Shown here one piece after another: positions 20,140 through 22,255 of a stretch of 64,000 nucleotides of DNA. The DNA is taken from assembly GCF_003432115.1 (NCBI RefSeq), contig NZ_QWDC01000002.1, forward strand, positions 310,001 to 374,000. The letters are read 5' to 3'. Origin of the DNA: Mucilaginibacter conchicola (GTDB lineage Bacteria; Bacteroidota; Bacteroidia; Sphingobacteriales; Sphingobacteriaceae). The notes beneath the pieces are model-generated. The model made no database searches and was not told the DNA's origin. It worked only from the letters and a program-made list of their open reading frames with translations. The position numbers and the translations under genes were made by a program. The first letter of the stretch is position 1. Every line of letters begins with the position of its first letter.

Positions 20140-20619
20140 CTACCCCTTCTCACCCAAAGGCACCACCATTACCGGTACTTTGGCATTACGAATAACCGTT
20201 TCGGCTACGCTGCCCATCAACAGGCGGTCGATGCCCGAGCGGCTGTGGGTACCTATCACAATAAGATCGGCATTGAACTCTTCGCTGCTATGGAGTATGC
20301 CGTCGGCTGTGGAGCCAAATTCGTTGAAATGAGTTATCTGCAGGCCCTCGCCATATTTTTCGATGGTGCGATTAAGGATGTTATCGGCGTGGTCTTTCTG
20401 TATCTCCAGCAATGAAGCTTCGTTGTAATCGGCAGTTGGCAGGGGCATACCCATAATGTTATCGGCACCATTGCCGGTATCGGGCGTAACGGCTGGTTCA
20501 ACAATATGTACCAGCCCTACATGGGCATTAAAAGTTTTAGCTAAGTCGAAACCATAGCAAGCGGCGTATTCGGCATATTTGCTGTCGTCTATCCCAATTA
20601 ATATACGGCTGATCTTCAT
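20140..20619 (-). CDS. Universal stress protein UspA family
   Basis: The 159-residue protein has one USP domain. It starts KISRILIGIDDSKYAEYA and ends with the nucleotide-binding signature: IGTHSRSGIDRLLMGSVAET, i.e. G-2x-G-9x-G-S with the Ser in the expected place, then VIRNAKVPVMVVPLG. That pattern is typical of ATP-binding USP proteins. It probably acts in the cytoplasm in stress adaptation; the exact role of such proteins is often unclear. It lies downstream of the CLC-F gene on the same strand, but 170 bases with a hairpin lie between, so joint transcription is uncertain. Confidence 0.93.
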   Translation of the reverse strand: MKISRILIGIDDSKYAEYAACYGFDLAKTFNAHVGLVHIVEPAVTPDTGNGADNIMGMPLPTADYNEASLLEIQKDHADNILNRTIEKYGEGLQITHFNEFGSTADGILHSSEEFNADLIVIGTHSRSGIDRLLMGSVAETVIRNAKVPVMVVPLGEKG

Positions 20620-20756
20620 GATGATAAAGGGTTCTGTGATTGTTCTTCCTATAAAACAAACAGCCGTTGATATGTTTTACCAAAGCGCTAAAACTTAAGT
20701 ACATGCAAATATAGTTTACGGGAGTTGGGCTGAAGTCCGTAAAAACTTGCCTGCTT

Positions 20757-20789: not shown

Positions 20790-22106
20790 CTAAGGCTTAT
20801 ACTTATTAAATAACCGGCTTGTGTACCCGTTTATCTTAGCAACTCCCGTACGCTGTGCAGAATAGATACCACCCTCGCCGCTAAAGAAATAAGCCGTAAA
20901 ACATGCAATGGCAAAGAACAGGGCATATTCGCCTCCGAAGAGTTCAATACCCATCAGCGTGCAGGCCAGCGGGGTATTGGTAGCACCTGCAAAAACGGCG
21001 ATAAAGCCAAGGGCAACAAAAAGGCTCACGGGGGCATTCAGCAGATCGGCAAGCGTATTACCCAAGGTCGCCCCAATATAGAACAGCGGCGTAACCTCGC
21101 CACCTTTAAAACCTGTACCTAAGGTTACAGATGTATAGATAAGTTTCCATAACCAGCTAAAGAAATCGGCACCGGTATGGTGGAAAGCTGAAACAATGGT
21201 AACCGCGCCGGGATACTCAGCATCTACCCCTAAACTCAGGTAATCGGGTTTACCGAGGATAAAAGTTAAAGCTATAATTATCAAACCGCCAGCTACAGGT
21301 ATGAGCCAGCTGATCTTAATAAGTTTTAATGAGACATTCTTCACCAGGTGCACAGCCTTTGCAAAAGCCATAGCCACCAACCCAAACAAAGCCGAGGCGA
21401 ACAAAACCTTAGCCAACAGCAGAAAACTGACCGGCAGATGCTTGCCATAAAATTCGCCGCCTACATCAACCACATCAATATGGTAAAGCGTATGGTGAAT
21501 GCCCCAGGCAGATACTGTAACATCGCCCACCAAACCGGCAATTAAACACGGTAGCAGGGCATTGTATTGGATACGGCCAATGGCGATCACTTCAAGCGCG
21601 AATATGGTTCCTGTAAGCGGCGTACCGAATACGGCACCGAAACCAGCGGCTACACCGGCAGTTAATATCAGTTTTTTATCAGCCTCATTAAGTTTAAACC
21701 AACTACCAAAAAGGTTTGCCAGGCTCCCTCCTATTTGTACTGCAGTCCCCTCGCGCCCTGCCGAGCCGCCAAATAAATGGGTGATAATAGTAGTGATGAG
21801 GATAAGCGGTGCCATGCGTTTAGGTACGCCTGCACCCGGCTCATGTATCTCATCAATAATAAGGTTATTGCCGCGCTCGGCGCTTTGCCCGTACCATTTG
21901 TAAAGCAGGTGGATGGCAGCACCAGCCAGCGGCAACAGGTATAGCAGCCAGGTATGCCCAAACCTGAAATGGATAGCCCAATTGAGCAGCCACAGGAAAA
22001 GTGCCACCGCACTGCCAATAGCAACAGCCACAGGAATGCTGATAATAGTCCAGCGAACTAAATAACCTAAAAGATTTAACTGTTTTGAGATGATATTTTT
22101 GAACAT
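20790..22106 (-). CDS. CLC-F-type fluoride/proton antiporter
   Basis: A CLC-family membrane transporter of 438 residues with about ten or more hydrophobic segments. In canonical chloride CLC proteins the anion path has GSGIP and GREGP; here the first region reads EPGAGVP (residues 89-95), with no serine, and the second reads GREGT (117-121). A Thr or Val after GREG and loss of the serine are marks reported for the fluoride-specific CLC-F branch. GAVFGTPLTGTIFALEV and GTGFKGGEVTPLFYIG are also present. A fluoride riboswitch directly upstream (22141-22190) strongly supports fluoride export as the function. ATG 22106 starts close after the riboswitch. Confidence 0.93.
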   Translation of the reverse strand: MFKNIISKQLNLLGYLVRWTIISIPVAVAIGSAVALFLWLLNWAIHFRFGHTWLLYLLPLAGAAIHLLYKWYGQSAERGNNLIIDEIHEPGAGVPKRMAPLILITTIITHLFGGSAGREGTAVQIGGSLANLFGSWFKLNEADKKLILTAGVAAGFGAVFGTPLTGTIFALEVIAIGRIQYNALLPCLIAGLVGDVTVSAWGIHHTLYHIDVVDVGGEFYGKHLPVSFLLLAKVLFASALFGLVAMAFAKAVHLVKNVSLKLIKISWLIPVAGGLIIIALTFILGKPDYLSLGVDAEYPGAVTIVSAFHHTGADFFSWLWKLIYTSVTLGTGFKGGEVTPLFYIGATLGNTLADLLNAPVSLFVALGFIAVFAGATNTPLACTLMGIELFGGEYALFFAIACFTAYFFSGEGGIYSAQRTGVAKINGYTSRLFNKYKP

Positions 22107-22107
22107 A

Positions 22108-22113
22108 GCCTAC
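22108..22113 (-). promoter_or_regulatory. Candidate switch partner of the fluoride riboswitch
   Basis: On the minus strand GTAGGC ends 1 base before the start codon of the CLC-F gene. It is exactly complementary to GCCTAC at the 3' end of the fluoride aptamer (22141-22146), so the two could pair and block translation when the aptamer is empty. This is my inference. Confidence 0.5.
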
Positions 22114-22140
22114 AAGCAAATAAATAAAAAATCCATTTGA

Positions 22141-22190
22141 GTAGGCGTCATCAGCTTTGCAGCGGTTCAAATAGGCAGAACACCATTGCC
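22141..22190 (-). promoter_or_regulatory. Fluoride riboswitch (crcB motif)
   Basis: Read on the minus strand: GGCA-ATGGTGTTC-TGCC forms P1 with its loop, then TATTTGAACC, then GCT-GCAA-AGC as P2, then TGATGACGCCTAC. The loop GGTGTT can pair with GACGCC (six pairs with G-U), the pseudoknot of the fluoride aptamer. The blocks ATGGTGTTC, AACC and CTGATGACGCCTAC are the conserved signature of this class. It sits 35 bases upstream of the CLC-F start codon, the classical arrangement. Confidence 0.93.
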
Positions 22191-22255
22191 TTTTGTGAAA
22201 GTCAAAATTAAAAATTAAAAATTCAAAACCAAATCCCTTACCACACTATCGCTCC

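Follow-up and report, generated by a model that had tools for sequence, protein, structure and literature searches.

The leader of the CLC-F antiporter gene in the window (the whole 64-kb stretch of DNA analysed, from Mucilaginibacter, a soil bacterium) very probably acts as a translational riboswitch of the fluoride-ON type by closing off the start region of its gene, as predicted from sequence comparison and folding. The initial annotation had read the locus in this way and our analysis supports its interpretation, in which the fluoride response and the translational step are what we infer. Computation identifies the aptamer and the gene, shows that two pairings exclude each other and that the hairpin covaries, and finds neither a terminator nor a usable Shine-Dalgarno (SD) site in the leader.

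RESULTS

Fluoride aptamer and CLC-F gene

An Infernal-type search with the Rfam fluoride model RF01734, the check proposed with the initial annotation, gives a full-length match (model positions 1–64) at 22199–22135 on the minus strand, with 58 bits against a cutoff of 34 and an E-value of 1.7e-13 over 64 kb. It is the single copy in the whole 5.3-Mb genome and, judged by sequence, a true fluoride aptamer by class. Alignment to the model assigns P1 (GGCA/UGCC) and P2 (GCU/AGC); together with the pseudoknot between the loop and the 3′ end, read off the sequence, the aptamer is as complete as had been claimed. A match to NsiR8 in the same locus scores far below the NsiR8 cutoff and was rejected as chance.

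The aptamer lies upstream of a fluoride-detoxifying gene, as had been stated; 34 nt, and not 35, separate the aptamer core from the ATG. The assignment of the product to CLC-F agrees with its best solved relative, the CLC-type fluoride/proton antiporter 6d0j (E 3.5e-61), and the 438-aa protein contains GNNLI and GREGT, which presumably stand where chloride-type CLC proteins have other motifs. The nearest public genomes are those of Mucilaginibacter, with 92% protein identity. The features of the locus are as follows.

22230–22233, minus strand: TTTG, −33-like element of a Bacteroidota promoter, 19 nt upstream of the −7 box (sequence and general consensus)
22203–22210, minus strand: TAATTTTG, −7 box, TAnnTTTG (sequence; enrichment of the box ahead of relatives' aptamers)
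22135–22199, minus strand: fluoride riboswitch aptamer, RF01734 (Rfam match)
22179–22184, minus strand: pseudoknot 5′ strand GGUGUU in the P1 loop (sequence and Rfam model alignment)
22144–22149, minus strand: pseudoknot 3′ strand GACGCC (sequence and Rfam model alignment)
22141–22146, minus strand: outer helix 5′ arm GCCUAC, which has GCC in common with the pseudoknot and includes the U of the conserved CUAC (sequence, covariation, fold)
22131–22139, minus strand: inner helix 5′ arm CAAATGGAT / CAAAUGGAU (fold)
22117–22125, minus strand: inner helix 3′ arm ATTTATTTG / AUUUAUUUG (fold)
22108–22113, minus strand: outer helix 3′ arm GUAGGC, one base before the start codon (sequence, covariation, fold, tree simulation)
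20790–22106, minus strand: CLC-F fluoride/proton antiporter gene, 438 aa, ATG at 22106–22104 (CLC family match, structure relative)

Bacteroidota promoters follow the consensus TTTG-N19-TAnnTTTG, and the window has a TAnnTTTG box whose end lies 12 nt upstream of the first G of the aptamer. A copy of this box is present in the 34-nt stretch ahead of 73 of 144 aptamers, but in only 1.3% of control windows placed farther up, so transcription of the leader probably begins at or close to the aptamer's first base. CLC-F is followed in the same orientation by a gene for a universal stress protein (20140–20619); a TATATTTG box ahead of it at 20713–20706 suggests that it has its own promoter.

A predicted 15-bp hairpin overlaps the pseudoknot

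GCCTAC (22146–22141) is exactly complementary to GTAGGC (22113–22108), and a single T (22107) separates the latter from the ATG at 22106, so that the 3′ arm stops one base short of the start codon. Both points had been annotated correctly to the base. The platform had also been called minimal, a pairing of 6 bp; this has to be revised, as the fold gives a 15-bp hairpin of which these 6 bp are only the outer part. An internal loop of 1 and 3 bases follows and then 9 bp of inner helix absent from the initial annotation, CAAATGGAT (22139–22131) paired with ATTTATTTG (22125–22117). The whole hairpin has −15.5 kcal/mol (z −5.4), against −4.7 (sd 2.0) for shuffled sequences, none of 200 being as good.

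The outer helix and the pseudoknot both need GCC, so the two pairings are mutually exclusive, which answers the question of whether they could coexist. As bare duplexes, fluoride and magnesium being outside the calculation, the outer helix has −8.2 and the pseudoknot helix −6.1 kcal/mol. The outer helix also ties up the U of CUAC, which we take to pair with an A in the fluoride-riboswitch crystal structure. Only the AU-rich inner helix, with −4.1 kcal/mol alone, could persist in the bound state according to the model, and GUAGGCU-AUG would then be free. It counts against our reading that in an unconstrained fold of 150 nt other pairings replace P1 and P2 of the window.

UUUGAAC within the aptamer (22173–22165, minus strand) is complementary to GUUCAAA (22104–22098), which overlaps the start codon, and in the folded leader the AUG is enclosed between two helices; by eye, this pairing was seen only where the protein begins with MFK. 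It is stronger than permuted pairs, with kinship uncontrolled, and was not used as evidence.

The hairpin is conserved and covaries

Aptamers were searched for in 816 genomes of the genus, family, class and phylum, with 80 CLC-F loci in addition, and 146 distinct aptamers with downstream sequence entered the analysis of the arms. At least one match was found in 105 of 121 Mucilaginibacter genomes. Across the 146 distinct aptamers of Bacteroidota the type of arm tracks the end of the aptamer (CCTAC/GTAGG, CCTGC/GCAGG, CCTGA/TCAGG, TCTAC/GTAGA); exact reverse complements are TCAGG in all 9 CCTGA loci and GTAGA in 6 of 7 TCTAC loci. More distant loci pair CCTGTTCA with TGAACAGG (L130) and GTCTGTTTT with GAAAACAGAC (L250), and in L160 and L250 the pseudoknot strands co-vary with the arm.

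In 39 diverse relatives the outer helix is 92.3% paired, against 20–40% for controls with a slid partner, and changes on both sides are found at GC/AU (21/15) and CG/AU (28/7). Extended to 12 bp, the helix is 78.7% paired (29–41% when slid), and 8 pairs are changed on both sides. Kinship was controlled by a simulation for one pair position, in which the 3′ base evolved along the CLC-F tree without regard to the 5′ base: 68 of 79 observed pairs are Watson–Crick, 39±8 are simulated, and 0 of 2800 simulations came as high. This supersedes branch-by-branch parsimony, where double changes gave only weak significance (P 0.05 and 0.003); wobble intermediates, which break a double change into separate steps, and a handful of wrong anchors account for part of this weakness. 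MAFFT alignments of whole leaders to the ATG (A1, A2) were discarded because the distance from arm to start varies and the arms were misaligned; we used instead alignments with the invariant AGG as anchor (A3, A4), the constant spacer that joins the arm columns in A4 being an alignment device only.

Conservation in relatives had been named as a check of the proposal; we find the pairing retained in close relatives and covarying in distant ones. By these comparisons the hairpin is a family-wide or wider pattern, not peculiar to the window locus.

Position of the hairpin relative to the gene start

Within genus and family the hairpin is present in 124 of 133 distinct loci. With a permissive choice of start, a long reading frame can begin within a few bases of the arm in 87 of the 133; another 37 have the hairpin and no long frame starting at the arm, often with a short GTG-started frame before CLC-F, and these speak against our reading. 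The usual geometry is AGG-2-ATG, or AGGTG with GTG as the start, and one subgroup has its GTG start codon within the arm of the hairpin. Some FluC genes have the arm over the start codon or over the first codons, within the coding sequence; an example is L111 (Pfam CRCB), where AUGUACAGG/CCUGUACAU is CCTGTACAT paired with ATGTACAGG, start codon included. The switch built into the start codon, as first annotated, thus exists literally in relatives with GTG or FluC starts, while the arm of the window remains one base short.

A GTAGG-type arm was not recognisable in six distinct Pedobacter CLC-F aptamers (L113, L115, L140, L141, L143 and L144). This clade has good aptamers only about 23–25 nt before the ATG. 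The lack of the arm counts against our reading as a rule for all relatives and points to another platform in the family and different switching there.

In a Mucilaginibacter subgroup (L044, L054, L062, L065, L073, L078) the GTG of the arm opens a poorly conserved frame of 58–77 codons, either a leader peptide or a relic, and CLC-F starts about 220–270 nt after the aptamer.

Terminator and Shine-Dalgarno site

Most described fluoride riboswitches are of the terminator type, so the hairpin might be an intrinsic transcription terminator; for this locus we consider that very unlikely. The same exchange of pseudoknot for hairpin would serve it, and classes of the phylum other than Bacteroidia do have classical terminators, in which 7 of the 8 bases following the arm are T (L120, L122 and L127, in a small sample of 18 loci). 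However, the terminator search found no terminator-like site in the window leader, whose arm is followed by UAUGUUC and not by the poly-U of terminator-type fluoride riboswitches; at least 6 T after the arm were seen in only 1 of the 133 genus and family loci, and in relatives the arm overlaps the start codon. Alternatively, the effect could come indirectly through the level of mRNA, an untranslated leader being exposed to Rho or RNase with the translation block as trigger or secondary. Coupling of translation block and Rho is known for other riboswitches from work cited in PMC12121620; the arm, however, keeps its place relative to the start codon, and a switch acting through decay alone would have no need of that. 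We regard the indirect explanation as improbable. It is hardly credible that the complementarity is chance and the aptamer acts otherwise: some Pedobacter CLC-F aptamers do lack the arm, but the z-score of the hairpin, the compensatory changes in its arms and the tree-controlled simulation all speak against chance.

A usable SD site was not found in the window leader, so the locus does not match an SD-sequestering riboswitch either. Pairing of the upstream region to the anti-SD gives −2.4 kcal/mol (computed on the window-type leader L084, identical over these 20 nt), in agreement with the initial annotation, which saw no SD site to sequester; the AGG of this type is 2 nt from the ATG. Across 93 leaders the median is −3.1 kcal/mol, and 3 of 93 are at or below −7. 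In Flavobacterium the structure of the −20 to +20 region modulates initiation (Baez 2019, PMC6847099), and Bacteroidia initiate independently of SD and have lost SD recognition (PMC6847099; bS21 work, PMC9976891). Terminators at several of the few loci from other classes, against start-region hairpins in Bacteroidia, fit this loss.

DISCUSSION

In the fluoride-ON translational switch that we propose, transcription would start with the first aptamer base. In the absence of fluoride, GCCUAC would leave the pseudoknot and pair with GUAGGC, the 15-bp hairpin would close over about −40 to −2 of the leader, and a ribosome that does not use SD pairing would find the start region closed. Binding of fluoride, together with magnesium, would lock the pseudoknot and leave GUAGGC-U-AUG single-stranded; the open start stretch would then allow synthesis of the antiporter, and the pump would probably be made only with fluoride. 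Fluoride binding by the window RNA, the direction of switching and initiation as the controlled step are the parts that we infer.

The riboswitch class (crcB motif, RF01734; Weinberg 2010, PMC2864571), the gene and the pseudoknot-versus-hairpin principle are already known. Exchange of the pseudoknot for a hairpin is established for fluoride riboswitches by Hertz 2026 (PMC13273304), with a complete-riboswitch covariation model and covariation of pseudoknot and platform hairpin in terminator types. The window shares with these the aptamer, the pseudoknot, the expected ON logic, a hairpin that captures the pseudoknot 3′ strand and covariation of the aptamer 3′ end with the platform; unlike terminator types, it lacks poly-U, and its hairpin abuts the start codon, which in some relatives is covered. 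That study selected loci by intrinsic terminators and used start codons as positions only; its main text makes no mention of Bacteroidetes or SD sites, and its translational controls are the proteobacterial fluoride riboswitches of Pseudomonas syringae and Burkholderia pseudomallei. Compared with these two, the window likewise lacks a terminator and would be controlled after transcription, whereas its lineage ignores SD and its arm occupies −7 to −2, or in some relatives the start codon itself. Both proteobacterial switches are thought to mask the ribosome-binding site. SD-independent initiation in Bacteroidia (PMC6847099, PMC9976891) accounts for the importance of open structure from −20 to +20 and for the dispensability of SD; that is genome-wide tuning, while here a ligand-driven switch is proposed.

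What looks like a new variant is an SD-independent platform in the class Bacteroidia with a start-region hairpin. Our search of the open-access literature turned up no account of a Bacteroidota fluoride platform that works at the start codon. On balance we slightly favour a Bacteroidia-specific form of the riboswitch, in which the aptamer 3′ strand would serve as an ‘anti-start’ strand that pairs alongside the start codon, across it or with FluC codons 1–5, since the ribosomes ignore SD, platforms having moved from terminators to start-codon occlusion. Translational riboswitches are mostly described as hiding the SD site, and a lineage that ignores such sites must hide something else. These loci may offer a compact (∼95 nt), covariation-supported example where what is hidden is the start region, and suggest where the ‘missing’ expression platforms of other Bacteroidota riboswitches could be sought.

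A fluoride aptamer and the same hairpin precede membrane-protein genes starting at the GTG of the arm in L153 (742–1461, minus strand), L207, L163 and L164; the L153 product is a PAP2-superfamily phosphatase, which the L163 product, having no Pfam match, resembles by eye. Two fluoride aptamers (L225 and L226; genome G069, contig 146) lie 1 kb apart on the same strand. In the FluC genes L252 and L253, the GTAGG/GTGGG that complements the aptamer end codes for a conserved Val-Gly close to the N-terminus; part of the coding region may thus also act as the platform.
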